From Zygnema cylindricum (lineage: Eukaryota; Streptophyta; Zygnematophyceae; Zygnematales; Zygnemataceae): a stretch of DNA of 64,000 nt. Of this stretch, positions 19,166 through 60,395 are shown one piece after another. Position 1 is the first letter of the stretch. Every line of letters starts with the position of its first letter. A program made the translations under genes and the position numbers. The notes beneath the pieces were generated by a model. The model was not told the origin of the DNA and ran no database searches. It worked only from the letters and a program-made list of their open reading frames with translations. The DNA lies in the NCBI GenBank assembly GCA_037447655.1, contig JBBHKE010002999.1, positions 124,001-188,000 of the forward strand, given 5' to 3'.

Positions 19166-19178
19166 CTCCCCTTATTTT
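19166..19178 (-). other. Polypurine tract of element A
   Basis: In element orientation the sequence reads AAAATAAGGGGAG and abuts the 3' LTR start TGTAGAAA. This is the expected primer for plus-strand DNA synthesis. The same tract precedes the 3' LTRs of A2 and, in altered form, D. Confidence 0.85.
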
Positions 19179-21887: not shown

Positions 21888-23538
21888 TTATATCATCACT
21901 CTCACTGAACTGAATCCCTTCCACCACTCCCATCTTTTTCATCTCTCTTAACTTATCTAGATTCACATGCCCAAGCCTCTTATGCCACATCATAATATCA
22001 TGAACACCAGCATAGTAAAGTTTCTTCTTTTCATTACTTAAGATCAGCCTAAACATCCCATGGCTACCTTTCTCAGCAAAGAAATAGACATCATCCTCAA
22101 AACTAGCAGTAAAGACTCCTTCCCTAGTGCTAGTAAAAAAACCCTTATCATCTAATACTGATGTAGAGATAAGATTTTTGTTCAGCTCCGGAATAAACAA
22201 TACATTGAAGAATGTTAATATGGATGTCTTTCCTTTTACTAACACTTTTAGATCTACCGATCCTACAAGAGTAGTGGTGACTATCCTCCCATCCCCGTAC
22301 TCTATCTCTACGGTGGGAATCTTTCTTATCTTAGTGAACAGGTGTCTATCCTTACACATGTGCATGGAGGCACCTGAATCTACAATCCAGCCTGCTTCAC
22401 CTTTCAATCCATTGTAAGCATATTTCTGCCTCCGTGGAATTTCGACCTCATTTTTCGCCTCCAACTCCTCATCCAAAAGGAGCTCATCGTCCTCGTCCTC
22501 GGATTGAGCCTCAAGTACCTGTGTGACAAGGGCCTTTTTCTTTCCTCTCGGGGTACCACCGGTATGCCCCTCCTTTAACCGAAGCTCGGTAAGCTTTGTG
22601 CACTCTGCCATATAGTGCCCCGGTTTCTTACAAAAATGACATAGACCTTTGGGAACCCTTGGTTCGCACTCATCTGCCTGTTTTTTTTGCTCCCTACCCC
22701 CATAGTTTCCGACCGGTTTTCGGGAATCCCTGTTCCTCCTATCAGTCGCTGTTGCCAAGGCTTGGCCACTCTTTCCTCCCCTTCGGATCTCAATTGTATT
22801 TTCTTGAACGAGGATCATCCCTACCACTGAGTTCCATATCCACCTTGAGTTAGGCAAGTCCTGCACACGGTACACTATGTTCACGAACTCATCAGGTAAC
22901 TTCATCAGTAAACAGTTAAACTTTTCTTTTTCACTAAAGGCTTTTCCCGCACTCTCTAGCTCCATGAAGAGTGTAGCAAGCTCATTGCAAAAATCCAACA
23001 TATTTCCCCCTTTGTATACATACTCCTTAACTTTCTGATCAGCCAGCTGTTGTTGCTGAATCGTACCACTTCGGTACATCTCTATGAGAGCCATCCAAAG
23101 ATCGGATGCCCTTTCTACCTGCAAATGAGGACATGCAAGTCCTTGAGTGAGATGGCGTAGGATGAAGTGCTTTGCCGCCATATTGTTGAAGTCCCAGGTT
23201 TCAGTATCATTCTCCTCATTCCTCGGAATAGGTGACATGAATGTGGAACCAGTTGCTATTGGTGTGGTCGTCTCCTTCTCCTTTCCTTTGTCCACCACCT
23301 CTCCATCCTTTGTTTCCTCCGTTGAAGGTGGGTCCTCTTTCCTGGTGAATCTGGTTCCTCCAAACCCTGGAGGAATTCCAAGACTTGATGGACGCCCCAA
23401 CCGTCCACTCACTATCCCCCAAAACCTTTTTTCGCATAGAGCTCCTATCATCATACTTTCCCAGTATATGAAGCCTGTTCCATTAAATATTGGTACCATA
23501 GAGTGTGGGCCCATAACCTGAAACTCTAAGACCTCCAT
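21859..23538 (-). CDS. Copia Gag-protease-integrase N-terminus (element A)
   Basis: 559 codons. The first codons (MEVLEF) are encoded by the LTR, the next (QVMGPH) by the primer-binding site, followed by VPIFNGTGFIYWESMM. Next comes the Copia Gag capsid-like region (WMALIEMYRSGTIQQQQLADQ, NELATLFMELE). The zinc knuckle CHFCKKPGHYMAEC lies at about residues 298-311, then an acidic linker (SEDEDDELLLDEELE). The aspartic protease motif is WIVDSGASMHMC at about 383-394, and the integrase HHCC start MWHKRLGHVNLDKL at about 515-528. The reading frame leaves at DISDCSG through a one-base difference from relatives. ATG at 23536-23538 is chosen because related copies (D, A0) keep an ATG at the same LTR position. 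Confidence 0.92.
   Translation of the reverse strand: MEVLEFQVMGPHSMVPIFNGTGFIYWESMMIGALCEKRFWGIVSGRLGRPSSLGIPPGFGGTRFTRKEDPPSTEETKDGEVVDKGKEKETTTPIATGSTFMSPIPRNEENDTETWDFNNMAAKHFILRHLTQGLACPHLQVERASDLWMALIEMYRSGTIQQQQLADQKVKEYVYKGGNMLDFCNELATLFMELESAGKAFSEKEKFNCLLMKLPDEFVNIVYRVQDLPNSRWIWNSVVGMILVQENTIEIRRGGKSGQALATATDRRNRDSRKPVGNYGGREQKKQADECEPRVPKGLCHFCKKPGHYMAECTKLTELRLKEGHTGGTPRGKKKALVTQVLEAQSEDEDDELLLDEELEAKNEVEIPRRQKYAYNGLKGEAGWIVDSGASMHMCKDRHLFTKIRKIPTVEIEYGDGRIVTTTLVGSVDLKVLVKGKTSILTFFNVLFIPELNKNLISTSVLDDKGFFTSTREGVFTASFEDDVYFFAEKGSHGMFRLILSNEKKKLYYAGVHDIMMWHKRLGHVNLDKLREMKKMGVVEGIQFSESDDISDCSGFCSR
23505..23518 (-). other. Primer-binding site for initiator tRNA anticodon arm (element A)
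   Basis: Directly after the 5' LTR the element reads GGTTATGGGCCCAC. This is the complement of the anticodon stem-loop of eukaryotic initiator tRNA-Met (GTGGGCCCATAACC), not of a tRNA 3' end. Drosophila copia and yeast Ty5 are known to prime from this part of initiator tRNA. The site is in the gag frame (codons for QVMGP). Confidence 0.8.
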
Positions 23539-24560
23539 AAGTCCTCAGAGTAGACAGCTTCCAAGAAGCCTCTAGGATAATTCTGACCCCTTCGTGTTCC
23601 AGCAAAAATAACTGCCATTCTGGCAGACAAAAACCCTAACCACCTGCACCCCTGTGAAGACAAGACTCCCCTGAGTTGGTAGCAAAAAGAATCACTGAAT
23701 TTGCTCCCCTGAGCAGTAAGTTATGGGGGGTCAAAGTTGACCTTTTGTACAGAAGCTCTCTGGGAGAGGGGGTCCTATCTTCTAATTTTTCTAAGTCCTA
23801 TCTCTCTCACAGACTCTATCTACTGATGTACGGAACCAATCAGAATTGAGTTCCGTACGTAAAAGTACAGCCGCCGGTGTACTTTATGTACGGACATTGT
23901 ACGACATGCCCTAAATGTCGACACATGTCAAATCCGGATTCGGTGCCATAATCTCCGGAGATTCTACGATCCAACGGAATTTCGCCACGCGTCATCCGAT
24001 GTGGCGATGGCCACAAACCGCCGAAATCTTCCTCCGCGATCTCGGCGCTAATCCCGGCCGTCCGATTAAATTCAGATTTAATTGTGGCCGTAATAAATAC
24101 ATGCGCGGTATTTATTTCACTTCCGAAACAAATGCGCGGTATTGATTCGTAATCCGTACCGTCATTCGTACCGGATCTATGTATCCCGTAAACCGTAACA
24201 GTTAAATGAATTATCGTACATATACGTGTTTAATTAATTATCAAACTATATACTACGTAACACTAATCTTAGACTTAACGGCTAAGGCTACCGGCTACTT
24301 CCTATCTGCCGGCCGGTAGGTACAAGGATCAAATCCTGCCGCCGGCACATACCTTTTAAATAAATAAATAAACCCTAGTATAAAATTCCCGTAAACCTCA
24401 GGATAGCCAAGGTAGCCATGGCTCTAGCTTCCTCTCCAATTTCTCAGTGACTGCGACAAGTTTGAGATTTGGAGAGAGAAGTTAGAGGTAGACTGCCTTG
24501 GCTTCTTTCTATATTTCTATTTAGACCTAGAAAATACTAATAAATCCATTAGTTTCTACA
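23519..24560 (-). repeat. 5' LTR of element A
   Basis: 1042 bp, equal in length to the 3' LTR. Differences seen by eye are mostly transitions, for example CACCCT/CATTCT near 23618 and CGGATTTAATCG/CAGATTTAATTG near 24073-24083. It contains the gag ATG (23536-23538) and the same hairpin, tRNA-like and CCATGG boxes as the 3' LTR. Confidence 0.95.
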
Positions 24561-24565
24561 CTCCG

Positions 24566-31350: not shown

Positions 31351-33833
31351 CCCCTCTCTCTCTTCACCTACCTCTCCACCTTTCTCTTCCTCTCTCTTCC
31401 TCCCTCCCTACAGCTCTCATTCGCCCTCTCCCTTTTATTCTCCAGTTCCTCTCCCTCTCTAGATCCCTTCACTCTCGCTCTTCCTCTTCTTATCCCTCTC
31501 CATCTCCCACTCCCTCTAGGTCTCCCACTCTCTTTCGCTTTACTTCTCTCCCTTCCTCTCCCTCTCCCTCTCCCACTCTTTCCCCCTTACTCTTTTCCTC
31601 TCCTTTCCTCCCTCCTTACCACTCTCGTTTGCCCTCTCCCTCTTCTACTCCAATTCATCTCCCTCTCCAGCTCCCTTCCAGTGTGAAACAGGCCGAAATC
31701 CCGAATATTTCGGAAATCGAACATCTCTCTCCCCTCTCTCCCTTTCCCTTTTGGTCGCCCTCTCCCTCTTCACCTCTCTCCCTCCCCCTCCCTCTTCTTC
31801 TCCCTCTCCTTCTCTCCCTCTCTGTCCCTCTCCACCTCCCTCTCCTTCGCTCTCTCCCTCTTCTTCCCTCCCCCACCGCCGAGGAAAGAAAAAAAAAGAT
31901 TAAATCTTGCACTTAAAAAAAAAATGGGTTGGTTATTGTAGGTGAAAATTTTTCCTACCCAAAAAAAGAAACTAACGAAAATAATCTTCAACAAGAAAAG
32001 GAAAACTCCACACTAAATATGGTGTTGGGAAATTTATGTTTACTGGACATGGGGGAAGCTTCAAAGGTTCATATTCCGGAAAAACTGTCGAATATTTCAC
32101 AAAGTTAGTATTTTTTTCCTCTCAAGATTCTTTTTTTGTGTTCCAAGATTTTTTTTTACTCTTAATAAAAAATCGCCATTTTTTTTTTGCCTCATTTTTT
32201 TCAGTTTCTCCTTTCATATCTAAAATGAAATTTCCCGGTTCAGAAAGACAAAAAAAAAAAAACCCTTTATTATCTAGCTCACATTTTTTTCCTCCTTTCA
32301 TGTCTGGTGTTGCAGGTGAAACTTCCCCACTCCCTCTCCCTCGCTCTCCTCATCCTCCCTTTACCCCCCTCCCTCTCTCTCTCTCTCCTCGCTCTCCTTC
32401 TCACCCTCTCCCTCTCCCTCTCTTAAAGGATTCTCCTCCCTCCCCCCCCGAAAACATAGAATTTAATAATTTGCAAAAAATTGCGGAATCGAAGTTGTTG
32501 ACCGCATCGGAAATTTTTATTTTTTTGGTTAATTTTGAAGGAGGGGAGTTTTTATTGACAAAAAGGGCACCCGAGAAACCAGGAAGTGAGTTTTTCTATT
32601 TTCATAATTTTATTTTATTTCTTTATTTTTTTTTTTCAAATGCATTGTTTTACAAAAAACTCTTTTTATTGAGAAAAATAATTGGTCGAAAAAGGTAAAA
32701 AATGAAAGCTTAGTTAAATATCCCTTTTATTTTATCTTTTTTAAGAGGAAAATAAAAGATAGTAATTTACGACTCCATTTTTATTTATAGGTATTTTTTC
32801 ACTTTTTTTTTTAATTTATTTATTTGTTTATTTATTTATTTTCGTTCTGGTGGAACCTTGTTTATATAGATTTTACTCATTTTTTGCTTTATTTATATAT
32901 TTGTTTATTTGTTTATTTGTTTGTTTTTTTGTTTATTTTTGGGCAGGTGGAACTTTGTTTTTGTACGATAAAAGAAAATCTCGATCTTTCCGAAACGACG
33001 GTCATATTTGGCAAAAAAAAAATAACGGAGGAAGCACAGTGAACGAAAGCCACGTCAATCTTAAAGTATTTCATTTTTCTGCTTTTTTTAGGAGTTAACT
33101 ATTTATTTATTCAGTCAATTAAATAAATAGATAAATAAACAATAATTTTTTTATTAATTAATCTACGAATGGATGAATCAATTAATTAATTATTCTTTTT
33201 GTTTATTCTTACAAAAACACAAGAGTACTCTATTCGTCCGTGCATCGATTTTCTTACAACATGCTTTTTTTATTTTTTTGGTCTAATTATTTGTTTATTT
33301 ATTTTCTTTCTCCTAAAAATGTTGCAACAACTAAATAATTATTTAAGAATTGAGAAATTGCTTAAAAATTTGGTTTTTGCCGGTAATTTTTTTGTCCATT
33401 CATAATATTTCTGTTCAATAATATATGTACTTATTTATTGTATTATATTTTATATCATTTACTTCGGACTGGTCAATGGGAAAAGGAAGTCAATAAAAAA
33501 TGTTTTAGGTTTGTTTACTTTTTCTGTTTTCTTTTTTATCCGTTGTTTTTATTTTATTTTTGTCTCTTGGTAAGTCATTGGGAAGGATGTCAATAAAGAA
33601 TGTACTCAGTTTTTTTTTTTTTCTTTATTTTGTATTTATTTATTTGTTTTTTTTGTTTACATTTATTAATTTCATTTTTTTATTTTCGGGCAGATCAATG
33701 GGACGGAGGTCGTCTCTTGTTATTACGCTCGAAAGGAAGATGACTGCGAGTTTCATCGACAAATTTATTTTCTATTGAGAAAGTAAGTGAAAAAAATAAG
33801 TTTTATATATATATATAATATATATAGATAGAT

Positions 33834-40496: not shown

Positions 40497-41252
40497 TGAT
40501 AGGATTTAGTACTTAGAACTCATTTAGCGACGAGACATTCTCGTAGCTAAAGTAGCGACCACCAGCGACGAAGTAGTCTCGTCGCTAGTTATTTGAAGTG
40601 TCGTAGGAAGATATTTGAAGTGACGTAGAAGTTAGCGACGAAGTAGTTTCGTCGCTGGATATTTGAAGTGACGTAGAAACTGTTTGTTCGTTTCGTTTCA
40701 CGCGAGTTCTAGTCGTACTATTGAAGTGACGTGGAAAATGTTTGGTCGTTTCGGTTCACGTAAGTTCTAGTTGTACCGTGTGGTTCAAGTCGGTTCGTGG
40801 TTGACTTGTCTTGTCGTACCGTGTAGTTCAAGTCAGTTCGCAGTTGTCGGTCGGATGTTTTCACCACATTGACTCTTACGCGTTTCTAATCGTGTACCGT
40901 TGTTTTGTTACTTGACGTTTGAAGGAGTATATTGAGGCGTAGTGAGAGAGAGGTTCTTATCAATTTGGCGAGAGTTGATCCTCCTTGTAGATTATGAAGG
41001 AGTTCAAGGAGTTAAGGAAGTTTGATAGCTTTGTGGGGTTTCTTGAGGAGTTAGAGGAGGTTAGTGAAGATTATCTTTTGTATGATTAAGAGGAGTTAGA
41101 AGTGAGTGCGTTTTGAGGGTGTGAGGAAATTATGTAAGAAAAGTTTCCCTTTGGAATATATTGACTTTCGGTTACATTTCTCTTGTGTGCGTTCTGTCAT
41201 TTATGCTTCCGCTGGCATTTGCACTAAGTTTATTATTGTATAAGATCCTTCA
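40497..41252 (+). repeat. 5' LTR of element G
   Basis: 756 bp from TGATAGGATTTAG to GATCCTTCA. It contains GCGACGAAGTAGT boxes and a GTGTGCGTTCTGTCATTTATGC end shared with the 3' LTR. Confidence 0.85.
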
Positions 41253-41254
41253 AT

Positions 41255-41269
41255 TGGTATCGGAGCAGG
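41255..41269 (+). other. Primer-binding site of element G
   Basis: TGGTATCGGAGCAGG two bases after the LTR. It is complementary to the 3' end of plant-type initiator tRNA-Met (TGGTATCAGAGC is the usual plant form, one mismatch). This contrasts with the anticodon-arm PBS of elements A, B and C. Confidence 0.8.
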
Positions 41270-41334
41270 TTGTAGTGCTCCATGAGTGTTTTGATGATGG
41301 AGATGGAGACGATTGGAGGCGAAAAGGATTGACG

Positions 41335-41815
41335 ACGAAGACGACAGATTGAAGACGAAGAGAGAAGACGAAGACGGAGCTTGAAGACGAATATGAAGAC
41401 AGAAGACGAAGATGAAGACGAAGATGAAGAGGGAAGTCGAAGATGAAGATGAAGAAGAAGACGAAGATTGAAGACGAAGAAGAAGATGAAGAAGAAGATT
41501 GAAGACGAAGTGGAAGACGAAGACGACAAATTGAAGACGAAGAGAGAAGACGAAGACGAAGTTTGAAGACGAATATGAAGACAGAAGACGAAGATGAAGA
41601 CGAAGATTAAAACGAAGATTGAAGACGAAATGGAAGACGATGACGAAGTTTGAAGACGAATTCGAAGACAGAAGACGAAGATGAAGACGGAAGTCGAAGA
41701 TGAAGAAAGGTAGAAGACGAAGACTGAAGACGAAGATGAAAACTGGAGACGAAGTGGAAGGCGAAGACGAAGACGGAGATTGAAGACGAAGACTAAAACG
41801 AAGACTGAAGATGAT
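41335..41815 (+). repeat. GAAGAC/GAAGAT-rich tandem region in element G
   Basis: About 480 bp of degenerate GAAGACGAAGATGAAGACGG units, with a roughly 200-bp superperiod (GACGAAGTTTGAAGACGAAT.TGAAGACAGAAGACG recurs). It has no long frame on +; the Ser-rich frame on - is an artefact. Confidence 0.85.
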
Positions 41816-41816
41816 G

Positions 41817-42766
41817 TGAAAGAAGTTCGGAGGAGGAGTTGTGTGACTTGTTCTACAAGTTTACCCTTTATGTTGATGTGAAAATTCAGATGGAGATGGG
41901 AGGAAGAAAAGGATTTTGTTCTTTGAAGTGTGAACAGGATCTCGATCCGGATGGAGGTGATTCTTTATATGAAGTAGAAGAAGAAGAAGATGATGAAAAA
42001 CAAGTAGATGAAGAATCCGAAAGTCGAAGAAGGTGAAGAAGAGAAGAGTGAATTAAAAACTGAAGAAAGGAGTGAAGAAAAGTGTGATGAGAAGTGTATT
42101 AAAAAGAGAGTGAATTAAAAACTGAAGAGAGGAGTGAAGAAAAGTGTGATGAGAAGTGTATTAAAAAGAGTGATTTGATGAAAGAGAAGAAGAGTAAAAA
42201 GAAGAGTGAAGAGAAGAAGATAAATTTCTTTTGGGAGGAGAAATGAAGTTGCCGATGTGGTATATTGATTGAGGTGTAAAGGAGTGGTTTATGAAGAAGA
42301 AAGTAAGTGTGTTGTCGTGAGGTGAAAGAAGTTCGGACGAGGTGTTGTGTGACTTGTTCTACAAGTTTACCCTTTATGTTGAAGTGAAAATTCAGATTGA
42401 GATGGGAGGAAGAAAAGACTTTTGTCCTTTGAAGAGTGAACCTGATCTCGATCCGGATGGAGGTGATTCTTTATATGAAGTAGAAGAAGAAGAAGATGAT
42501 GAAGAAGAAGTAGATGAAAAATCCGAAAGTCGAAGAAGGTGAAAAAGAGAAGAGTGAATTAAAAACTGAAGAGAGGAGTGAAGAAAAGTGTGATGAGAAG
42601 TGAATTAAAAAGAGTGATTTGATGAAAGAGAAGAAGAGTGGAAAGAAGAGTGAAGAGAAGAAGATAAATTTCTTTTGGGAGGAGAAATGAAGTTGCCGAT
42701 GTGGTATATTGATTGAGGTGTAAAGGAGTGGTTTATGAAGAAGAAAGTAAGTGTGTTGTCGTGAGT
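41817..42766 (+). repeat. Tandem duplication of a 445-505 bp unit in element G
   Basis: Two units, 41817-42321 and 42322-42766, both start GTGAAAGAAGTTCGGA and end TGTTGTCGTGAG. Unit 1 is about 60 bp longer owing to an internal duplication (ATTAAAAACTGAAGARAGGA block). Each unit carries a 65-66 codon frame (41839-42036 and 42342-42542) beginning CDLFYKFTLYV and ending in an acidic EVEEEEDDE tail. Frame and acidic tail are conserved between units, so these may be parts of a captured gene. Function unknown. Confidence 0.85.
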
Positions 42767-42771
42767 TGAAA

Positions 42772-42957
42772 ATGAATCTCGGCATTTTTGAAGATCTTTT
42801 TTGGAGGGAGTTTTATTTCGTACTCTTGTACGTTTATTTATTGAAGACGTTATTCGAAGTGAATCGAGGAGGAAGAAGAGGAGGATTTTTTGTGTTAGCG
42901 AAAGACCGGTTGCTTTACCGGCTGTTTTGGCCATTTATTGACAAAGAGGAGGATTGA
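42772..42957 (+). CDS. Hypothetical small frame in element G cargo
   Basis: 61 codons starting MNLGIFEDLFWREF, with an aromatic-rich segment and ending PFIDKEED. I do not recognise it. It directly follows the tandem duplication and may be an exon-like piece of captured sequence rather than a complete gene. Confidence 0.3.
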   Translation: MNLGIFEDLFWREFYFVLLYVYLLKTLFEVNRGGRRGGFFVLAKDRLLYRLFWPFIDKEED

Positions 42958-43156
42958 AAAAATTGACGAAGATGAAGAAAAAGAGGAGAAATCAGATTCT
43001 TGTTTTGGGTTTGAAAGAAGATAAGAGTAAAGACGAAGTGGAGGTAGTGAGAGATTATTCTCTCGGAAGGAAGAAGAGTACTCCTTCCCTCCTGGCGGCT
43101 TCAACGTTTGTTTGGAGAAACCATTTTTTTTTAGTTTTATTTGAGGAAGAATTCGG

Positions 43157-43354
43157 ATGTATGGAGCGACAAATTTGGAAGATCAATTTCCGAAAGATTT
43201 CAACAAATTGATGGGGTATATTGATGCCCTATTACAATCTGAATCAAGAGGAGAAAAGGAAAAGAATCATTTGCCGGATAATTCAAATTCCTATTTTGAT
43301 GGAGATGGAGATGAGAGTGGAGGAGACGAGTATGTGAAAAAAGAGAAGAGGTAA
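43157..43354 (+). CDS. Hypothetical small frame in element G cargo
   Basis: 65 codons, MYGATNLEDQFPKDFNKL..., with an acidic, Asp/Gly-rich end (DGDGDESGGDEY) and a basic tail. Unrecognised. It could be part of the same captured sequence as the neighbouring frames. Confidence 0.3.
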   Translation: MYGATNLEDQFPKDFNKLMGYIDALLQSESRGEKEKNHLPDNSNSYFDGDGDESGGDEYVKKEKR

Positions 43355-43430
43355 ACTGTCACTTAGAATTTCGAGGAGGAGAGGTGGCATTTAAAGAGCT
43401 TGAGAACATTTTTTTTTACTTTGTTAAACT

Positions 43431-43598
43431 ATGTCGGTAGTGGAAGAGATCGCAAAAACGGCGATTGAGGTGATCGCAGTGGAAGTTGCGGCCGTGTTAA
43501 ATTTACAAATTATTTTGGGTTTGGAAATTATACTGACAGACTATAATTTTCCGATTCGCATTTTAATGATTAATTCGATGAGAGGAGATGAAGAATGA
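43431..43598 (+). CDS. Hypothetical small frame, weakly RNase H-like
   Basis: 55 codons, MSVVEEIAKTAIEVIAVEVA..., containing LGLEIILTDYNF. The pattern of a Glu-containing helix followed by a strand ending in Asp recalls RNase H-fold proteins, but without the other catalytic positions this is speculation. Confidence 0.25.
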   Translation: MSVVEEIAKTAIEVIAVEVAAVLNLQIILGLEIILTDYNFPIRILMINSMRGDEE

Positions 43599-43599
43599 G

Positions 43600-45373
43600 A
43601 GAATACTTTGTTTTTATGGGAGAGCGAAACTCATGATTTCTTGTCCATTGCGCATTCTGCATTGGAGGAGAAAGCACATGTCCATTTCGGTTTGAATAGT
43701 TAAAGGAAAATGTTGACATTAAGAGTGACATTGAATTTTACATTGATGATTGGAGTGATGAAATTTTTATTTCTCGAGTGTATTTGAATTCTCGGAAATT
43801 TAAAGGTTTAAAATCGAGTTCTAATTTAGATTTAACAAATCCGAATCGGAGGAAGATAAAAGGAGAGAACAAATTTGTTCAAATGAGATTCAAGTTATGA
43901 TGGGGAAGAGGCCTAATAAGTTTTTTTATTTTTGGCAAGGAGAAAGGATTTCAAACTTGTTTCATTTTATTTTTGATGTGAGGAAAAATCAACTTTATCT
44001 GTTGAGAATTTTGTTTGCGAGAATGTTGTTGGAAGCCCACAGTCGTTTTCTAAATTAAGAGAGGTTGAAGAGTGGGAAACGATATTGGAGGCGGTAGAAG
44101 AGAAGAGTGTTGAGAAAGAGAAAAAAAAAGTGAATTAAAAAGTGTGACATCTTTTTTTTTCTATCAACGAAAAATAAAAATGTGAAGTTTTTTTTTGGGT
44201 TATATATGAGAGGAGGACAAGTCGTTCAGTACGAAGAGCCGGTTGAACGCTTGACGTACATTGAGGAATGAACGATGATGTCGAATATTAGGCGGCCGTT
44301 TTGGTCGTCGTCAGATTTTGTCGGTCATAGAGTTATTCAAAATTTGTTTACGCAGATCTTTCCGTACCTTATGGTACCATGTGGATGTGACTATGGTTTC
44401 AGTTGACGAAAAAATTATATTTGGAAGTGCTAATTTTGAAAGAGGTTGTGACGCGGAGTTATTTGACGTGGATTTGCGGCGTGGACTTTTCATTTATTTT
44501 CATTTCGAAATTTCATCACCTTGTTACGTTTTTTTTTTCGTTTAGAGCGGCATTTTGTTTCTTTTTAAGATTCTAAGAACAAATGGAGAAGCGCCATGTG
44601 GCGTATGCGTGAATTTTGACGCGCGAAGTTACGAATGAATTTTGAGTGATAATTGAAGGAAAAAATTCGCAATCAAGTTGTAACGTTTCACAAGGGGCTA
44701 CGACATTTGGAGTTGATTGAAGTTTGTGAGGATTCAGTTGGGGGATTATTCGATTTGGCGTTTATGGAAAAATCGCGAGGAGATATAATTGTTTCTTACG
44801 TTGGACATTTGATGTTTTAATTCGTACGTTAATATGGTATTTTAATTTGTCGTTTACGTATGCTTCATGATGTTTTACGGAGGGGAAGTTTTAAGTTGTG
44901 ATTGGTGTAATGACTACAAGTTTAAAAGGGGGATTGTTAGACTCAAATTTGTAATCGCTTGTCGCTTGTCTGTCGCACGGTCGTCTAGTTTGTCTTTTGC
45001 TATTTTGTTTAACTTTGTTTACGTTATTTTGGAGTTGAGGTGGCGCTTTGACAATTCCCACATTAAGAGGGAGATTGCTAAGGTTTACATTTTGGGGTTT
45101 GTGTTAGCGTCGGTTGGCAGATTAAGTGTTGATTTTGTGTGTCGTAGTTATTTCTGTCTTGAAGTGTTTGTACGGAGGGTCTCGGTCACTCTACAGTTTT
45201 GTGTCATAGTGATCGTAGTGGTCTTTGTTTTGAGGTAGTATTTTGTCGTAGTACGTTGGCGGCGCACGTTTCGCACGCCGCGTCTGATTGGTTAATTTGT
45301 ACTTAGGTACTTGTTCGTTCGTTTAAAGTCTTGAGGTTTCATTTGAGTGAATGGGGAGTCCGCATGATTTACG
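43600..45373 (+). other. Decayed cargo and LTR-like start within element G
   Basis: Short frames with protein-like composition occur at about 43700-43900 (DIEFYIDDWSDEIFISRVY). Another at about 44380-44500 (VDEKIIFGSANFERG) loosely resembles the GSxN part of phospholipase D HKD motifs, but the His/Lys spacing does not fit. At 44937 TGTTAGACTCAAATTTG follows a purine run AAAAGGGGGAT, as at the start of a Copia LTR, and a similar AAGAGGGAGATTGCTAAGG occurs near 45065. No boundaries are resolved. Confidence 0.4.
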
Positions 45374-45603
45374 ATGTTTCGCATCGCGACGCACGATTCT
45401 ATTTCGGTTCGATGTGGAGATTTGTTTTTGGGTTGCGGAGTACATTTGTACGACCTATATCGTTTCACTTTGTTGAGGAATTTTTCAGTTGACGTTTGCG
45501 TAAGTTCCTTTGAGCGTGTACTTACAGTTGCTAATATGTTAACCAAAGCAACATTAAAAGAATTATATAAAATGGGAAAGAAGTTAGTGGGCATGGAGTA
45601 AGA
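45374..45603 (+). pseudogene. Copia pol C-terminal remnant of element G
   Basis: Ends with VANMLTKATLKELYKMGKKL, matching the Copia RNase H C-terminus (VADxLTK...). A stop follows at 45601-45603 and the polypurine tract about 25 bp later. Upstream RNase H motifs are not recognisable. It identifies G as a Copia derivative. Confidence 0.7.
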
Positions 45604-45635
45604 GGGGGCTTTGAGTGTCTCAGTAAGAGGGGGAA

Positions 45636-46394
45636 TGAAAGGATTAAGTACTAAGACCTCATTTAGCGACAAGATATTCTCGTAGCTAAAGCAGCGACGA
45701 CTAGCGACGAAGTAGTTTCTTCACTAGATATTTGAAGTGACGTGGAAATTGTTTGTTCGTTTCGTTTCGTTTCACGTAAGTTTGAGACGTATTTTAGAAG
45801 TGACGTGGAAATTGTTTGGTCGTTTCCGTTCACGCAAATTCTAGTAGTACCGTGTGGTTCAAGTCCGTTCTTAGTTGATTTTTCTAGCCACACCGAGTAG
45901 TTCAAGTCGGTTCGCACTTGTCGGTTGTTTATTTCACCACGTTGACTCTTACGCGTTTCTAGTCGTGTACTGTGTTGTGTTACGTATTGGTGTAGTTTGA
46001 TTAGTTAGCGTTTAGTGCATTTTACATGTACAGGTTGGTTGGTATCATTACGTGACGTTTGAAGGAGTATATTGAGGCGTAGTGAGAGAGAGGTTTTTAT
46101 CAATTGAGTGAGACTTGATCCTCCTTGTAGATTATGAAAGAGTTCAAGGAGTTAAGGGAGTTTGATAGCGTTGTGGTGTTTCTTGAGGAGTTAGAGGTGG
46201 TTAGTGAAGATTATCATTTATATTATTAAGAGGAGTTAAAAGTGAGAGTGTTTTGAGGGTGTGAGGAAATTATGTAAGAAAAGTTCTCCGTGGAATATAT
46301 TGGCTTCCGTGGGGTTATCTTTCTCTTGTGTGTGTTTTATCTTTTATGCTTCCACTTGAATTTGCACTCAGTGTTTTATTGTTCGATCCTATCA
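45636..46394 (+). repeat. 3' LTR of element G
   Basis: 759 bp, TGAAAGGATTAAG...GATCCTATCA. It has an extra stretch (near 45990-46050) relative to the 5' LTR and lacks others. By eye the two LTRs have diverged noticeably, so the element is old. Confidence 0.85.
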
Positions 46395-51774: not shown

Positions 51775-52379
51775 AGAGGGCAGGGGAAAGGAAAAACAAA
51801 GAGAAGGAGAATTCGGAAAAGGAAAATCATGATGAGAGGTAGAGAGAGATGGTGGGTGAGGGAGAGGGATAAGGAGAGGGAGTAAGAGAGGGAGATTGAC
51901 AAGGAGAAATTGAGGAGTGAGAGAGGGAGAAAGATGGTCACGGAGAGGGAGAGGGTGAGGACGAGGGTAAGGGTGATATAAAGGAAGAGGGAGAGGGAGA
52001 GGGAGAGGGAGAGGGAGAGTGAGCGAAAAGGGAGAGGGAGAGGGAGAGGGAGAGGTTGAGGGAGAGAGAGAGGGAGAATGAGAAGGAGGGGGAGGGGGAG
52101 GGGGAAAAGGAAAGGGAAAGAGGGGTGAGGGAGAGAGAGAGGGAGGAGGGAGTGGAAAAAAGAGAAAGAGAGGGAGTGAGAGAGGGGAGGAGAGGATGAG
52201 GGAGGGAGAGGGAGAGAGATAAGAGGAAGGTAATGCATAAAGTTGGGTGGAAGGGAGAGCAAGAGGGAGAAGGAGAGGGAGAAGGAGTGGGAGAGGGAGA
52301 GGAAGAGTGGGGTGAGGGAGAGTGAGTTTGGGAGGGAGGGAGAGGAGGAAGCGGGAGAGGGAAACAACGAGGGAGAGGG
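51775..52379. repeat. Purine satellite, part 2
   Basis: About 600 bp of GAGAGGGA/AGGGAGAG sequence between elements D and C. The Ser/Leu/Pro-rich frame on the - strand across it is an artefact of composition. Confidence 0.92.
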
Positions 52380-53267
52380 TATTGAAAAGAGGTAATTAAT
52401 AGTTCACTTCTATATTTTAGTTTTACTTTAAAGAAAGAGAGTAAGGATCAAAGGCACGCCATGGCTGCCGCCATATTTAGAAAGTGGCAGATTTTGAAGT
52501 AGATAATATTTTACTAAAATGTTGCCTGAGTCCAGATTTGAACCTGGGTTTGTGGACTTCTATATAAACGTAGGTCTTAACCACTAAGGCGTTATCGAAA
52601 CGATACACGTGACTGGTTTCAAAGATATATAAACATTAACGCGACAGCTAGTTAACACCAGACTAACGAAGAGGAACAACTCATGCATATACGCGTATCT
52701 GAACCGTGTAAAATATGTTTTGATCGGACGGCCGGAATTATAGCCGCCACGTGAAGTGAGCTTTTGGCAGCATACGGAGATAGCCTCACGCGGTGCCACG
52801 TGGCGCCACATTATTTGATACCGAAGAAGATGGGAGAAGGAACCATGGCTTTCGATTTGACAGGTGTCACCTTGTAGACCTTGTCGTACAATGGTCGTAC
52901 AATAAGTACATCGCCCATTATACCTTCTTGTACTATATAGTGTTCCTATTGGACTAGGGTTTAGTAGTAGGTAGTCGTGAGTAGGCAGACCAAGACTTAG
53001 TAATATTTAGGTACCTCTCTCTAAGAGAGCTTGTAACTATAAAGGTCATCTTTGACATGCCATAACTTACTGCTCAGGGGAGCAAATTCATTGATTCTTT
53101 TTGCGTTTGACTCAGGGGAGTCTTGTCCTCACAAGGGTGAGGGTGGTCAGAATATTTTTGTGCCTGGGCGGCGCTTATTCAGTGGGAAAGTGGAAGGGGC
53201 AAATATTATCCTAGAGGCTTTACATAGGTTGCTCATTCTGTGGGTCAATGGAGACCACATAATTTCA
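52380..53267 (+). repeat. 5' LTR of element C
   Basis: TATTGAAAAGAGG...AATTTCA. It contains an antisense tRNA-like module (about 52525-52605) with a B box GGTTCAAATCT and a Ser/Leu-like D arm, a GCCACGTGGCGCCAC box (about 52794-52810) and TTGTACTATATAGTG. Confidence 0.88.
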
Positions 53268-53281
53268 CGTTATGGGCCCAC
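53266..53281 (+). other. Primer-binding site of element C (initiator tRNA anticodon arm)
   Basis: The bases across and after the LTR end read CACGTTATGGGCCCAC. GTTATGGGCCCACC complements the anticodon arm of plant initiator tRNA-Met (GGTGGGCCCATAAC). The AUG of the PBS is also the first in-frame AUG of gag here. Confidence 0.78.
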
Positions 53282-54371
53282 CCTCTAGGGTGCCCATATT
53301 TGATGGATCAGACTTTCTTTATTGGGAAATGATGATGGAGGGAGAACTATTTGAGAAGCATATATGGGGCATAGTGTCTGGACAAATTCGATGCCCACCT
53401 CCACCTGGGTTTGGAAGGACACGTTTTTCTGGCACCTTCGCCTCTACACTTGGTAGAACAGCTGCCACCATCACCGAGGATGAAGATGAGGAAGGAGAGG
53501 AGAGTTTCATGGAAGGAGAAAAGGGAGAAGTTGCAACTCAAGTGACACCATTCCGGAAGGCGATACCGGCAGCAACACCACCAGCAATGACGACAAGGGT
53601 TCGGACCGAAAGATAAAAGTATGAAAAGTGGAACTACAAAGACAAGGTTGCTAAGCTCTTAATTCTTAAAAGTGTAGCAAAGGGCATTGCCATTCCCTTT
53701 ATGCATGTCAAATCTACATCTCAGATTTGGATATCACTAGTTAACAAATATAAGAGTGGATCATTAGAGCAACAACAATTGGCGGAAAATAAGATTGCAG
53801 CTTATACTTATAAATGAGGAAGTATGAATAATTATTGGAATGATTTATGAGCATTATTTGGAGAGTTAGAGAGTGCAGGTAACTCATGGTCTGAGAGACA
53901 ACGAGTGAACACATTGATGATGAAACAACCAGAAGAGTATGAGAATATCATTAACCGATTGCAGGACATTGGAGATAGCAATTGGAATTGGGATGACACA
54001 TTGGGAATGATTTTAGTGAAAGAAACCACCATAGAGCTTAGGAGAGGAAGTCCACGTGTTCAAGCATTGTCTACAGGAGCTGATTATCAGGAAACGTGAT
54101 GAGGAGAGAGGGAAAGATCCCTATCGAAACTTTGGTGGAAATGGTCAAGGAGGTAGTTGATTTGATAGACGAGGAGAGGAACTTCTCGAGGAGGATTATG
54201 TCACTTCTGCAAGAAACCGGGACACTATATGGCAGATTGTGTCAACCTTGCAGATCTTCGACTGAAAGATGGTCAAGGAACCTCAAGGGATGGAGGAAAG
54301 AAAAGGCTTTCCTGACTGAAGTTCATGATGAGGAAGTGAAAGAAAAAACTGAACTAGAAGAGGAGCTTTAG
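53272..54371 (+). pseudogene. gag of element C
   Basis: From the PBS AUG: MGPPSRVPIFDGSDFLYWE..., an acidic stretch TEDEDEEGEES, then in the same frame after stops near 53614, 53815 and 53848 the capsid-like part (YKSGSLEQQQLAENKIAAYTYK, ELESAGNSWSERQRVNTLMMKQ, RLQDIGDSNWNWDDTLGMIL) to 54099. After a shift comes the zinc knuckle CHFCKKPGHYMADC at about 54200-54242. The upstream LTR AUG seen in A and D is followed by a stop here (METT). Confidence 0.85.
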
Positions 54372-55916
54372 GAGCTTCTTCTTAATCCGAAAAACACTGA
54401 AAAGCATGTCGACATTCCACGGAGACAAAAGTGTGCTTTCGGAGGTAAGAGGGATCCACCCGAGGATGGGTGGATCATAGACTCAGGGGCTTCAATGCAT
54501 ATGTGCAAAGATAAGCGGTGGTTCACTAAACTGAGAAAGATCCTAACAGTTGAGATAGAGTACGGAGATGGTAGAGTAGAAACAACAAGTCTTGTTGGAA
54601 CTGTTGACTTAAAGGTTCTAGTTGATGGAAAGGCCTCAATTGTAACACTCTCAGACGTTTTTTACATTCCACAGCTTAGCAAGTACCTAGTCTCAACAGC
54701 TGTCCTAGATGACAAGGAGTTTGAAACAAGAACTAGGAAAGGAATCTTCACAGCAAGCTTTGATAATGAGGTTTATTTCATAGCTGAGAAGGGCAGTCAA
54801 GGAATGTTCACAATTGTTCTTTGCAATGTAAAGAGTGTTCTCTACTCGTGTGCAAGTGAGATGATGCTTTCGCATAAAAGGTTGGGGCATGTGCATCTAG
54901 ATAGATTAAAGAAAATGAAGAAAAAATGAATAGTGGAGGGTATTACTTTTGAGGATGATGAGACCTTTGATGATTGTAGTGGATGTGCCCAAGGGAAGAT
55001 TAATAGACTTCCATTTCCAAAGGCAACCACATTTAGGAGAGAGAAAGTGTTAGATCTAGTTCACACTGATGTTTGGGGACCTGCTAGGTATGCTTCACAT
55101 GGGGGGAAGAGATGGATGTTAACCATCACAGATGATTCGTCTAGATACACGAAGGTATACTTTCTCAAACATAAGTCAGAGGTATTAAGATGTTTCAAAG
55201 AGTATAAAGTATGGAGTGAAAAGCTACATGAAACCTCAATAAAAGAGATAAGAAGTGAAAATGGGAAAGAATACACCTCAAGGGAATTTGAAGAATATCA
55301 TAAAGAAGAAGGAATTCATCATGAGGAAACTGTTCCCTATAATCCAGAACAAAATGGAGTAGCAGAAAGAGTGAATAGAACTTTAGGAGATATGTCTAGA
55401 AGTATGTTAAGTGACAAGAGGATAGGGCTGCAGTTTTGGGCTGAGTCTATCAACTATGCTAATTTCATCAAAAATAGAGTCCTAACTTCAGCAAATAAGG
55501 AGGAAACTCCGTATGAGAGGTGGACAGGAAGAAAGCCTGATTTTTCTAGTTTGAGAGTGTTCGGAAGTCAAGTTTATAGTTTGGATTCCGATAAGACTAA
55601 ATGGAAGTTGGAGGGAAGAGGGAAACCAGAATATCTTGTAGGATATGATGAGAGCACAAAAGGATACCGGGTGTATGACTTGAAAAAGAGAGATAAAATT
55701 TTGGTAAAACACATAGTGGTGATGAATGAAGTGAAGTCCTCTGATCCATTCAAATATAATAAGGAAGTAAAAATCAGATTTGAAACGGATCAGTTTTTTG
55801 ACTTTGACTTTGAAAATAAAGAGAAGGAAGATGGAGAAAAAAAAAATTGCAGATCTACCAAAGGAGGAGGAAAGGATAATATCCGAGGCAACGCCATAAT
55901 AAGAAGTGGAAACTGA
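54372..55916 (+). pseudogene. Protease and integrase of element C
   Basis: One frame with a single stop at 54927-54929. Protease: WIIDSGASMHMC at about 54469-54504. Integrase HHCC: LSHKRLGHVHLDRL...CSGCAQGK (HKRLGH intact). Core: HTDVWGPARY, IRSENGKEYTSREF (Asp replaced by Glu in SDNG), PEQNGVAERVNRTL. The GYDESTKGYRVYDL region follows, with a frameshift near 55900 into RT. The changed second catalytic Asp suggests an inactive integrase. Confidence 0.88.
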
Positions 55917-57129
55917 TGAGGATTTTGATGAGACACCGGAATTGGAAGATAGGGGAGCTGAAAATCTTCCTAAACGAAACCCAAGGATGCCTTCCATACC
56001 GGCTTCCGATTTTGAAGGGGGAAGAAGAAGTAGTAAACGACTTCAAGAAAGACAAGTAAATAACCAACTCACAAAGATGTCTCACCCGAATGAACCTCAG
56101 ACATACTTAGAGGCCATAAACACCCCAGAAAGTAGCCGGTGGATCATAGCTATAAATGAAGAAATGGCCTCTATCATGGAAGCCAATACATGGGAGTTGG
56201 TAGATTGTCCACCGGACCGAAAACCGATCGGATGTAAGTGGGTTTTTAAACTTAAATTAAACCCCGATAATACCATTGAGAGGTACAAAGCTAGGTTAGT
56301 TGCAAAAGGTTATACTCAGAAAGAGGGGATAGACTACGAAGAAACCTTTGCACCTGTAGTCAGATTTCCATCTGTTAGAATCCTTTTAAGTATAGCTGCA
56401 GCGGAGGATATGGAAATCCACCAGATGGATATTAAAACGGCCTTTTTGCACGGAGAGTTGGAAGAAAAAATTTACATGAGGCAACCGGAAGGATTCGTGG
56501 AAAGTGGGGAAGAAAATAAAGTTTGCAAACTGATAAAATCACTGTAGGGGCTTAAGCAAGCCCCACGACAGTGGAATATAAAGCTAGACGAATTTCTGAC
56601 CGGTTTGGGGTATATCAGAATTAGTTCAGATCACTCTATATATTTATTTGAGGATGAGAATGGAGTGATATTTATTGCTAATTATGTGGATGATTTGTTG
56701 GTCTTAAGCAAGTCATTAGATAAAATTAACAAACTAAAACGCGATCTTAGAAGCAGTTTTGATATGAAAGTTCTCGGCAAAGCAAAGGACATTTTGGGAA
56801 TTCAGATGGAGAGAGAAATAGGGAATAGAATTATAAGACTCACTCAAAAAGAAGCAATCGATAATATGCTAGAAAAATTTCAGATGGAAAAGGCAAACGG
56901 ATGTACTACTCCTATGGATTTGAAAAAAGTGTTTGAAGGGAGTGAAGAAAGAGGAATATTAATCATTAATGATGAGATGGATGAGATAGAAAGAAAATTT
57001 ATGGAAAATAGTCCTTATTGGCAGATTGTAGGCAGTTTAATTTATTTTATGAATTATACCCGTCCAGATATAGTTGTAGCAGTAGGTGTCCTTAGTAGAA
57101 GTCTAAATGAACCAAGAAAGAGAGACTAG
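55906..57129 (+). pseudogene. Reverse transcriptase of element C
   Basis: Frame with a stop (TAG) at 56545-56547. WELVDCPPDRKPIGCKWVFK, YKARLVAKGYTQKEGIDYEE, MDIKTAFLHGELEEKIYMRQ and the active site NYVDDLLVLSKS (catalytic YVDD intact) at about 56680-56715 are present, then MNYTRPDIVVAVGVLSRSL before a second TAG at 57127-57129. Confidence 0.9.
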
Positions 57130-57678
57130 GAGGCTGCCAAAAGGGTGATGAGATATCTGGTGGGGACAAGGGAATTATGGTTGCATTTGGGAGGGGAGCA
57201 CACTAACATCACCACCTGGAGTGATGCCAATTATAGAGATGTGCCTTTAAGACGGTGTACGACTGGATATGTGTTGCAAATTGGATCCGGTGCATGTTGT
57301 TGGAGTAGCAAGCAACAAAAAGTAGTTGCTCAGTCTACTATGGAGGCTGAATACATGGCTTCCTGTGCTGCCACCAAAGAATTAATGTGGGTTAAATCTC
57401 TTGTTGAAGAACTTGGGTTCATGAAGTCTGGAACTCAAAATGTTTTTTGTGATAATCAAGTTGCTATCTCTATTGCAGCTAATCCGAAACATCACTTCAA
57501 AGCTAAGCATATGGATATAAGACTAAGCTTTGTCAAAGAGAAGGTTGAAAATAAAATTATTAAACTACTTCATAAAACTGATAGAGAAATGATTGCAGAC
57601 ATAATGACAAAACCAGTGCCTTCCCCTAAGTTGATTTATTGCAGAGAAAACTGTGGATTAAAATTAAAAAGTGACTAG
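57130..57678 (+). pseudogene. RNase H of element C
   Basis: Same frame as RT, after the TAG. Shows TWSDANYRDVPLRRCTTGYVL, MEAEYMASCAATKELMWVKS, CDNQVAISIAANPKHHFKAKH and DIMTKPVPSPKLIYC before the natural TAG at 57676-57678. The domain looks intact apart from its separation. A PPT-like AATTAAGAAGAG precedes the 3' LTR. Confidence 0.9.
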
Positions 57679-57691
57679 GAATTAAGAAGAG

Positions 57692-58579
57692 TGTTGAAAA
57701 GAGGTAATTAATAGTTCACTTCTATATTTTAGTTTTACTTTAAAGAAAGAGAGTAAGGATCAAAGGCACGCCATGGCTGCCGCCATATTTAGAAAGTAGC
57801 AGATTTTGAAGTAGAGAATATTTTACTAAAATGTTGCCTGAGTCCAGATTTGAACCTGGGTTTGTGGACTTCTATATAAACGTCCGTCTTAACCACTAAG
57901 GCGTTATCGAAACGATACACATTACTGGTTTCAAAGATATATAAACATTAACGCAACAACTAATTAACAACAGACTAACCAAAAGGAGCAATTCATGTAT
58001 GTACGCGAATCTGAACCGTGTAAAATATGTTTTGATCGGACGCCCGGCATTATAGCCGCCACGTGAAGTGAGCTTTTGGCGGCATACGGAGATAGCGTCA
58101 CGCGGTGCCACGTGGCGCCACATTATTTGATACCGAAGAAGATGGGAGGAGGAACAATGGCTTCCAATTTAACAGGTGTCACCTTGTAGACCTTGTCGTA
58201 CAATGGACGTACAATAAGTACATTGCCCATTGTACCTTCTTGTACTATATAGTGTTCCTATTGGACTAGGGTTTAGTAGTAGGTAGTCGTGAGAAGGCAG
58301 ACCAAGACTTAGTAATATTTAGGTACCTCTCTCTAAGAGAGCTTGTACCTATAAAGGTCATCTTTGACCTGCCATAACTTACTGCTCAGGGGAGCAAATT
58401 CAGTGATTCTTTTTGCGTTTGACTCAGGGGAATCTTGTCCTCACAGCGGTGAGGGTGGTTAGAATAATTTTGTGCCTGGGCAGCCCTTATTCAGTGGGAA
58501 AGTGGAAGGGGCAAATATTATCCTAGAGGCTTTACATAGGTTGCTCATTCTGTGGGTCAATGGAGACCACAAAATTTTA
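57692..58579 (+). repeat. 3' LTR of element C
   Basis: TGTTGAAAAGAGG...AAATTTTA, 888 bp. Keeps the canonical TG but not CA. Otherwise colinear with the 5' LTR. Confidence 0.88.
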
Positions 58580-59164
58580 GAGGGAGAGGGAGAGGGAGAG
58601 GGAGAGGGAGAGGGAGAGGGAGAGGGAGAGGGAGAGGGAGAGGGAGAGGGAGAGGGAGAGGGAGAGGGAGAGGGAGGGGATGAGGGAAAGGGAGGGGGCG
58701 AGGAAGGGGACGAGGGAGGGGACGAGGAAGGGGACGAGGGAGTGGGCGAGGTGGAGAGGGGCTAGGGAGGGAGAGGGAGAGGGAGAGGGAAAGGTAGAGG
58801 GAGAGGGAGATAAAGAGGGAGAGGGAGAGGGAGAGGGAGAGAGAGTAGAAGAGGGAGAAGAAAAGGGAGAGGGAGAAGGAAAGGAAGAGGGAGAGGGAGA
58901 GGGAGAGGGAGAGGAAAAGGGAGAGGGAAAGGTAGAGGGAAAGGGAGAGGGAGAGAGAGAGGGAAGGGTAGAGGTAGAAGGAGGGGATGAGGGAGAGGGA
59001 GGGGGCGAGGAACGGGACGAGGGAGGGGACGAGGAAGGGGACGAGGGAGTGGGCGAGGTGGAGAGGGGCTAGGGAGGGAGAGGGAGAGGGTGAGGGGGAA
59101 AGAGTGGGGCAAGGGGGAAAGAGGGGTGCGAAGGGAAGAGTGGTGGGGAGGAAGAGGTGAAAAA
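58580..59164. repeat. Purine satellite, part 3
   Basis: Begins with about 100 bp of near-perfect GGGAGA hexamers (58580-58677). The array then becomes a longer repeat in which GAGGAAGGGGACGAGGGAG and GGCGAGGTGGAGAGGGGC segments recur (58700-58763 and 59010-59070). It ends at the TRIM insertion. Confidence 0.92.
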
Positions 59165-59269
59165 TGTTGGATTGGCACGTGAAACCGGTCCAATACGGGG
59201 TAGAATATGGAAATATCCATACTCGAGCCGCCCGTAATAAATGGGTACGGACCCGCTAGTCTCAACAAT

Positions 59270-59340
59270 GAGCTGGTGGCACAGTGGTAGTGCGTTCGCA
59301 GCTGAAGTGAAAGGTCCCAGGTTCGAACCCTGGCCGGCTC
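59270..59340 (+). ncRNA. tRNA-like sequence in TRIM LTR 1
   Basis: Folds by eye into a cloverleaf: acceptor GAGCTGG/CCGGCTC, D stem GCAC/GTGC with loop AGTGGTA, anticodon stem TTCGC/GTGAA, T arm CCAGG-TTCGAAC-CCTGG. The T loop and B box (GGTTCGAACCC) are perfect. The anticodon loop AGCTGAA has G where U33 is universal, so it is not a normal tRNA. It may give an internal Pol III promoter. Confidence 0.75.
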
Positions 59341-59393
59341 AATTTTCCCAAGTGTGGGACATGCCGAATTCCGGATTTCTAGGAAATCTAACA

Positions 59394-59406
59394 TGGTATC
59401 GGAGCC
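59394..59406 (+). other. Primer-binding site of the TRIM
   Basis: TGGTATCGGAGCC abuts the LTR end. It differs by one base from the classical plant Copia PBS complementary to the 3' end of initiator tRNA-Met. Confidence 0.85.
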
Positions 59407-59555
59407 AACGGGATTGCGGATGGTTAGACCGGCTTTCCCGTGAGGGGGGGTGTTGGATTGGCACGTGAAGCCGGTCCAATACGGGGTAGAATATGGAAAT
59501 ATCCATACTCGAGCCGCCCGTAATAAATGGGTACGAACCCGCGAGTCTCAACAAC

Positions 59556-59626
59556 GAGCTGGTGGCACAGTGGTAGTGCGTTCGCAGCTGAAGTGAAAGG
59601 TCCCAGGTTCGAACCCTGGCCGACTC
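59556..59626 (+). ncRNA. tRNA-like sequence in TRIM LTR 2
   Basis: Same as the copy in LTR 1 but the 3' acceptor strand reads CCGACTC, breaking one pair. D arm, anticodon arm and T arm are identical. Confidence 0.72.
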
Positions 59627-59679
59627 AATTTTCCCAAGTGTGGGACATGCCGAATCCCAGATTTCTAGGAAATCTAACA

Positions 59680-60395
59680 AAAAAGGGGGAGGGAAATGGA
59701 GAGGGAGAGGGAGAAGGAGTGGGAGAGGGAGAAGCGGGGGCGGAAACAGAGAGGGAGGGGGAGAGAGAGAGGGAGGGGGCGAGGGACGGGTGGAGGAAGG
59801 GAGCGAGGGAGAGGGAGAGGGAAAGGGTGAAGGAGGGGGAGAGGGAGAGGGAGAGGGAGTAGAAGAGGGAGAAGAAGAGGGAGAGGGAGAGGGAAAGGAA
59901 CAGGGAGAGGGAGAGGGAGAGGGAGAGGGAGAGGGAAAGGGAGAGGGAAAGGTAAAGGGAGAGGGAGAGGGAGAGGGAGAGGGAAGGGTAGAGGTAGAAA
60001 GAGGGGATGAGGGAGAGGGAGGGGGCGAGGAAGGGGACGAGGGAGTGGGCGAGGGAGAGGGAGAGGTAGAGAGGGGCTAGGGAGGGTGGAGGAGAGGGTG
60101 AGGGGGAAAGAGTGGGGCAAGGGGGGAAGAGGGGTGCGAGGGGGAGAGTGGGGGGGAGGAAGAGGTGAAAGAGGGGGAGGGAAATGGAGAGGGAGAGGGA
60201 GAAGGAGTGGGAGAGGGGGAAGCGGGGGCGGAAAATAAAGAGGGAGGGGGAGAGAGAGAGGGAGGGGGCGAGGGAGGGGGGGAGGGAGGGGGCGAGGGAG
60301 AGAGAGAGGGAGAGGGAGAGGGAGAGGGAGGGGGAGAGAGAGAGGGAGGGGGAGAGGGAGAGGGAGAGAGGGGTGAGCGAGGGAGAGGGAGAGGT
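59680..60395. repeat. Purine satellite, part 4, with higher-order repeats
   Basis: A block of roughly 500 bp (AGTGGGGCAAGGGGG...GAGGTGAAA, then GGGGGAGGGAAATGGAGAGG...AAGCGGGGGCGG) occurs twice: once interrupted by the TRIM (59103-59164 plus 59685-59760) and again at 60113-60235. The end contains closely spaced runs of three or more G (about 60245-60300). Confidence 0.9.

Follow-up and report, generated by a model that had tools for sequence, protein, structure and literature searches.

What does a tRNA-like sequence do inside both long terminal repeats (LTRs) of a tiny retrotransposon that encodes no protein? This question is raised by positions 59165 to 59679 of the stretch of Zygnema cylindricum DNA analysed here (64,000 nucleotides; hereafter the window), which an initial annotation had read as a complete terminal-repeat retrotransposon in miniature (TRIM), with 229-bp LTRs, a 57-bp interior made of a primer-binding site (PBS) and a polypurine tract (PPT), and the target site duplication (TSD) AAAAA.

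A complete TRIM and its genomic family

Comparison of the LTRs and the TSDs of related copies bear out this reading. The 515-bp element is complete, with two LTRs of 229 nt that are 97% identical (96.9%, 7 substitutions) and a 57-bp interior with PBS and PPT, which starts TGGTATCGGAGCC and finishes GTGAGGGGGGG (Table 1). The AAAAA duplication is weak by itself because of its low complexity, and the TSD question was settled by the other copies of the family.

Table 1. Positions of the parts of the TRIM within the window.
Feature	Position	Strand	Basis
5′ TSD AAAAA	59160..59164		sequence; exact 5-bp TSD in 31/40 family clusters with intact ends
5′ LTR, 229 bp, TGTTGG...CTAACA	59165..59393	+	LTR repeat comparison
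AATAAA, possible Pol II poly(A) signal upstream of tRNA-like module	59236..59241	+	present in 87/88 full LTRs; absent from L124
CAA motif, 7 nt upstream of tRNA-like start	59263..59265	+	in 85/88 LTRs; CTA in L124 and L125
tRNA-like module, 5′ LTR	59270..59341	+	ARAGORN, Rfam tRNA
Box A TGGCACAGTGG	59277..59287	+	motif match
Box B GGTTCGAACCC	59320..59330	+	motif match
TTTT, possible Pol III stop right after tRNA-like module, 5′ LTR	59343..59346	+	in 87/88 LTRs
PBS TGGTATCGGAGCCA	59394..59407	+	perfect complement of host initiator tRNA-Met 3′ end + CCA
PPT region GTGAGGGGGGG	59440..59450	+	seen in sequence
3′ LTR, 229 bp	59451..59679	+	LTR repeat comparison
tRNA-like module, 3′ LTR	59556..59627	+	ARAGORN, Rfam tRNA
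TTTT after tRNA-like module, 3′ LTR	59629..59632	+	sequence
3′ TSD AAAAA	59680..59684		sequence

The element is surrounded by GGGAGA-type purine tracts with a 12-bp spacing (~58600-59160 and 59685-60100); a similar purine tract occurs near 52 kb of the window and a pyrimidine tract near 31 kb. Within a pyrimidine-rich tract, the 44 bp at 31680-31723 match the final 44 bp of the LTR at 77% and are either a relic of an LTR or part of another, related LTR family. One ORF that does not look like part of a transposable element yielded no relatives. Elsewhere in the host genome (G000), light-harvesting-type genes (PF00504) form clusters on C519, C2590, C610, C1077 and C1116; in a tree, one host light-harvesting protein clusters at weak support (82/80, drawn open) with rows from transcriptomes and metagenomes and separately from most rows of land plants, and Ceratopteris, Mesotaenium and Closterium have no clear position. 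The host genes look like those of a streptophyte, and this weak grouping would fit an alga of that lineage without demonstrating it.

Copies throughout the 352.8-Mb genome were counted with 30-nt patterns allowing up to 3 mismatches on both strands, with reversed patterns as controls. These counts gave 594 tRNA-like cores (control 0), 582 matches to the LTR segment downstream of the module (U5; control 0) and 244 matches to the PBS plus interior (control 2). The cloverleaf belongs to the family and has not been lost from most copies, as the similar numbers of cores and downstream segments attest. Cores exceed twice the number of interiors by 106, as solo LTRs would give if the patterns were equally tolerant. 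Viral contigs contained no exact match to a 39-nt pattern.

With the complete element as query, 49 places were listed from 40 scored of 968 candidates, so the sample is biased toward close copies. TSDs were counted at L001-L047 minus the overlapping L008, L012, L015, L016, L017, L019 and L023, which leaves 40 loci; of the 41 clusters at these loci, 40 have intact outer ends. L048-L072 and L122, some of which are degraded or incomplete, lie outside this count. An exact 5-bp TSD was found at 31 of the 40 clusters with intact ends, with 29 distinct sequences, compared with a mean of 0.9 and a maximum of 5 in 2000 permutations. The nine clusters lacking a TSD are L004, L020, L031, L034, L035, L045, L046 and two at L047, which share a 5′ flank and may be one duplicated insertion. 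Solo LTRs with TSDs were present at two of three further loci (TCCCT at L125, whose module has a short internal duplication, and CTTTT at L126). The copies, distinct TSDs and solo LTRs that the initial annotation had proposed to look for therefore exist, and the window TRIM is one copy of a genuine multicopy family.

The lower U3 count (270, versus 594 cores and 582 U5 segments) raised the possibility of a shared tRNA-U5 module joined to a variable U3. We rejected this possibility on finding that L124-L126 all carry U3. The gap is at least partly an artefact of the pattern, since a one-base deletion falls inside it at two of these three loci, although three loci are few and explain the gap only in part. 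A search with the element minus its tRNA-like module gave 128 pieces (40 scored of 701 candidates), and seven of these loci or places were examined for their layout.

Nine of 33 adjacent LTR pairs, from 27 loci, are 100% identical, and such still-identical pairs point to recent movement. The window pair, at 96.9%, is the most diverged of 32 pairs, the 33rd spanning two separate elements at L016. Some copies form tandem arrays in which LTRs are shared: L005, L032, L033 and L040 have 3, 3, 5 and 5 LTR matches, respectively, each array with a flanking TSD and intact ends, and a fifth array with 4 LTR matches has broken ends (L043). At L068 (G000:C144:50400-53000), LTRs recur with a period of 243 bp, a 17-bp spacer replaces the interior, and an inverted LTR adjoins the array. 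Tandem arrays of this type are described for Cassandra and other TRIMs in the available text of PMC7215508 and PMC4717578.

The tRNA-like module and host tRNAs

ARAGORN calls one tRNA in each LTR of the window TRIM, and the Infernal-type check that had been suggested agrees, with Rfam tRNA matches of 53.6 bits (E 9.9e-9 over the whole window) for the 5′ module and 49.2 bits for the 3′ module, both above the gathering score of 29. A permissive Rfam scan of the window found no tRNA match beyond these two. The initial annotation was therefore right to see a tRNA-like sequence in each LTR; its length is 72 nt with the discriminator base included, rather than 71. The B box that was called perfect (GGTTCGAACCC) does match GWTCRANNC but is one base off the stricter consensus GGTTCGANTCC. 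All four stems (acceptor, D, anticodon and T) pair in the 5′ module, whereas one acceptor pair is broken in the 3′ module. None of 20000 dinucleotide shuffles of the majority LTR of the family produced box A together with box B (GGTTCGA..CC) spaced as in a tRNA; when a looser box B was allowed, 21 of 20000 did.

Across copies, stem pairs are intact in 331 of 332 cells for the D stem, 414 of 415 for the anticodon stem, 407 of 415 for the T stem and 571 of 581 for the acceptor stem, and box A and box B are unaltered in 82 and 79 of 86, respectively. Over 60 LTRs, all from young copies, variants per site amount to 0.0076 in the module versus 0.0073 in the upstream and 0.0045 in the downstream part of the LTR. 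Folding of the module segments (taken 1 nt short at the 5′ end) gave stabilities no better than those of shuffled sequences (z of 0.52 and 0.13), and the minimum-energy fold of the 3′ segment is not a cloverleaf.

ARAGORN labelled 87 of 91 copies tRNA-Gln, one Ser and one His, and left two unlabelled. The anticodon loop is AGCTGAA in 80 of 83 LTRs, which confirms the G noticed earlier at position 33; the remaining three have A33. tRNAs have U33. We compared the module body with a sample of host tRNAs (63 scored of 24620 candidates), in which 49 of the 63 places (L073-L121) gave 54 ARAGORN calls, 32 of them distinct. The sampled isotypes were Phe, Lys, Asn, Cys, Trp, Gln(TTG), Arg and a tRNA with a CTA anticodon (Pyl in ARAGORN), plus initiator tRNA-Met (iMet) from L123. 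ARAGORN calls longer than 100 nt were left out of the host tRNA set, as were those longer than 85 nt in the iMet and PBS comparison. Identity of the body to host tRNA-Gln(TTG) was 61%, less than to Arg, Asn and Cys, and the best match was Arg(CCT) at 70%, where identities between isotypes average 59% with a 95th percentile of 76%. Derivation of the module from the initiator tRNA was considered and set aside: its T arm is identical to that of host iMet at 20 of 22 positions, the highest among sampled tRNAs, yet the whole module reaches 65% versus 70% for Arg(CCT), and we claim no parent. Judging from the G in place of U33 and a body unlike host tRNA-Gln(TTG), the cloverleaf is probably not a working tRNA, in keeping with the earlier argument that the odd loop speaks against simple capture of one.

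Primer, partner and transcription

The initial annotation had also allowed that the module might mimic a tRNA for priming. A 22-nt pattern allowing up to 2 mismatches, which occurs at 9 places, led us to the gene for host initiator tRNA-Met, of which one copy was read (L123). The PBS is a perfect 14-nt complement of the 3′ end of this tRNA plus CCA, whereas the next best sampled host tRNA offers a run of 5 nt. Most of the interiors among the matches listed (244 in total) have GCCAGCGGG, which extends the complementarity to 15; a variant, TGGTATCAGAGCC (for example at L124), fits iMet one base less well. Because the PBS pairs with initiator tRNA-Met, whose 3′ end differs from that of the module, self-priming is unsupported.

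A genome-wide search for an autonomous partner, in the form of the LTR end and PBS followed by a non-A base, found a single place, which proved to be a degraded member of the TRIM family itself (L122). A 19-nt pattern of the iMet complement also occurs at one place in the genome. At ~40630-46390 the window contains an LTR element with a similar PBS (TGGTATCGGAGCAGG), in which no pol-like ORF was recognised in the ORF listing and which is possibly a large non-autonomous, LARD-like element. The Copia elements at 52376-58577 and 18124-24564 have, next to the LTR, PBSs that are 14-nt complements of the iMet anticodon arm (GTTATGGGCCCACC and GGTTATGGGCCCAC). As these target the anticodon arm and not the 3′ end, the window Copias are not obvious partners. 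Among the 120 relatives listed for a window Copia protein, identities are 37-48% and the plant-named ones are seed plants. As to mobilisation by Copia or Gypsy elements, the TRIM has a 5-bp TSD and the window Copias have a different iMet PBS.

An internal Pol III promoter in the LTR, which the initial annotation had proposed, would be the best mechanism for this arrangement. We think it probable that the TRIM is transcribed by Pol III, with the tRNA-like module serving as promoter and R region, and that it is primed by initiator tRNA-Met and mobilised by proteins of an autonomous element. In the 5′ LTR, Pol III would start close to the CAA motif belonging to the tRNA-like unit and pass the weak four-T stop; it would end at the corresponding stop of the 3′ LTR, such that the module would form the R region at both ends of the RNA. 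Initiator tRNA-Met would then prime reverse transcription, and the product would be packaged and integrated by the proteins of an autonomous LTR retrotransposon. The cloverleaf would thus work as a promoter and not as a tRNA.

This model is favoured because the CAA motif, boxes A and B and T4 are kept in most close copies and because the Helenus elements described below have the same architecture. The 88 full LTRs examined were selected because they resemble the window element; 85 of them have CAA 7 nt before the module, and in 87 a TTTT, the single T4 run of the majority LTR, begins two nt beyond the last base of the module. In the available text of PMC11700998, CAA occurs within 10 nt upstream of 36-45% of angiosperm tRNA genes, so it is common and not required, and 67-73% have a poly(T) of at least 4 (mean about 5), four T being the shortest stop counted. 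Several observations weigh against the model. CTA replaces CAA at two of the three further loci (L124 and L125), the pattern searches found no autonomous partner, the polymerase would have to pass T4 in one LTR yet stop at it in the other, the module is no more conserved than the rest of the LTR, though the copies are young, and it folds no more stably than shuffled sequences do. In addition, CCAAT, AATATGG and AATAAA upstream of the module could equally serve Pol II.

If Pol II instead transcribed the TRIM from LTR sequence upstream of the module, the module would lie in U5, between cap and PBS, as a leader structure (tRNA mimicry) or a passenger. The tRNA-like element of HIV-1 offers a parallel for mimicry near a PBS. 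CCAAT, AATATGG and AATAAA, at LTR positions 26, 40 and 72, all precede the module at 106, and AATAAA, which we take to be a possible Pol II poly(A) signal, is retained in all but one of the 88 LTRs. However, most close copies jointly retain box A, box B, CAA and T4, which a leader role would not require, and folding gives a stable structure no support, leaving this alternative somewhat unlikely. It is quite unlikely that the module is a passenger throughout, left by an old insertion of a SINE or tRNA, without a current function and still present because the copies are young. Its lack of excess conservation and of a clear parent among the sampled host tRNAs (best 70%) fit such a history, whereas the kept stem pairs, though expected in young copies anyway, and the same arrangement in fungi, animals and Selaginella (PMC10886601, as far as its available text goes), which suggests use, do not. 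That the element has multiplied a captured working tRNA-Gln(CUG) gene, as the ARAGORN labels would have it, is very improbable given the replacement of U33 in all 83 LTRs and a body closer to Arg, Asn and Cys than to host Gln(TTG), in a sample lacking host Gln(CTG).

Returning to Pol III transcription, a more specific proposal can be put forward only tentatively: in a recently active Helenus family of a streptophyte alga, or of another early-diverging streptophyte, the tRNA-like unit, with its CAA start, its two boxes (A and B) and its T4 stop, may be R itself, with Pol III both starting and ending the genomic RNA there, and the leaky T4 may decide between an ~80-nt dead-end RNA and a mobile full-length RNA.

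Relation to known elements and significance

Several known elements carry a functional RNA sequence in a comparable place. Retrozymes are non-autonomous plant LTR elements with a hammerhead ribozyme in the LTR. They share with the window TRIM a functional RNA in the LTR of a non-autonomous plant element; Rfam found no hammerhead in the window LTRs at the gathering score or at E up to 1. tRNA-derived SINEs likewise have a tRNA-like head with Pol III boxes, but here there are two LTRs, a PBS, a PPT and a 5-bp TSD, and the module lies inside the LTR. The initial annotation's analogy with Cassandra TRIMs holds in that both are non-autonomous, have a small RNA gene sequence in each LTR, share the PBS TGGTATCAGAGC and form tandem arrays; according to the text available from PMC7215508, however, the Cassandra LTR has 5S rRNA sequence, whereas Rfam finds only tRNA here.

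The closest match is Helenus, the name given by Kojima in 2024 to TRIMs with tRNA-like LTRs, found in fungi, animals and one plant, Selaginella moellendorffii (PMC10886601, here and below in its available text). Among the open-licence papers searched, PMC10886601 alone mentions Helenus, tRNA and LTR retrotransposons together, and of the four that name TRIMp3 it is the only one on retrotransposons. As in Helenus, both LTRs of the window element contain a tRNA-like sequence that has boxes A and B, and a PBS and PPT lie between the LTRs; its 515 bp fall within the published range of 311-1263 bp, and it is multicopy with a 5-bp TSD, as are plant and fungal Helenus (PMC10886601). Many Helenus families have an anticodon that disagrees with the isotype of the body (PMC10886601), and such a disagreement may hold in the window family, whose body is nearer to Arg, Asn and Cys than to Gln(TTG) within a partial isotype sample. 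Helenus-1_SMo, the only plant family named, has an LTR of 120 bp and an interior of 85 bp, versus 229 and 57 bp here (PMC10886601). We conclude that the window TRIM is a new family within the known Helenus group, placed there by structure and compared with Helenus-1_SMo by description only. Pol III transcription of Helenus lacks experimental validation according to the same paper (PMC10886601).

Several hundred sites of this family would tend to be labelled tRNA-Gln by a tRNA finder, as were 87 of the 91 tested, and would inflate tRNA gene counts. Whether Pol III is used can be tested directly on the young copies with identical LTRs. The family also ties the PBS of a TRIM to the host's own initiator tRNA gene, and it adds an abundant, recently moving member from the plant side to Helenus, for which one plant species is listed in the available text of PMC10886601.
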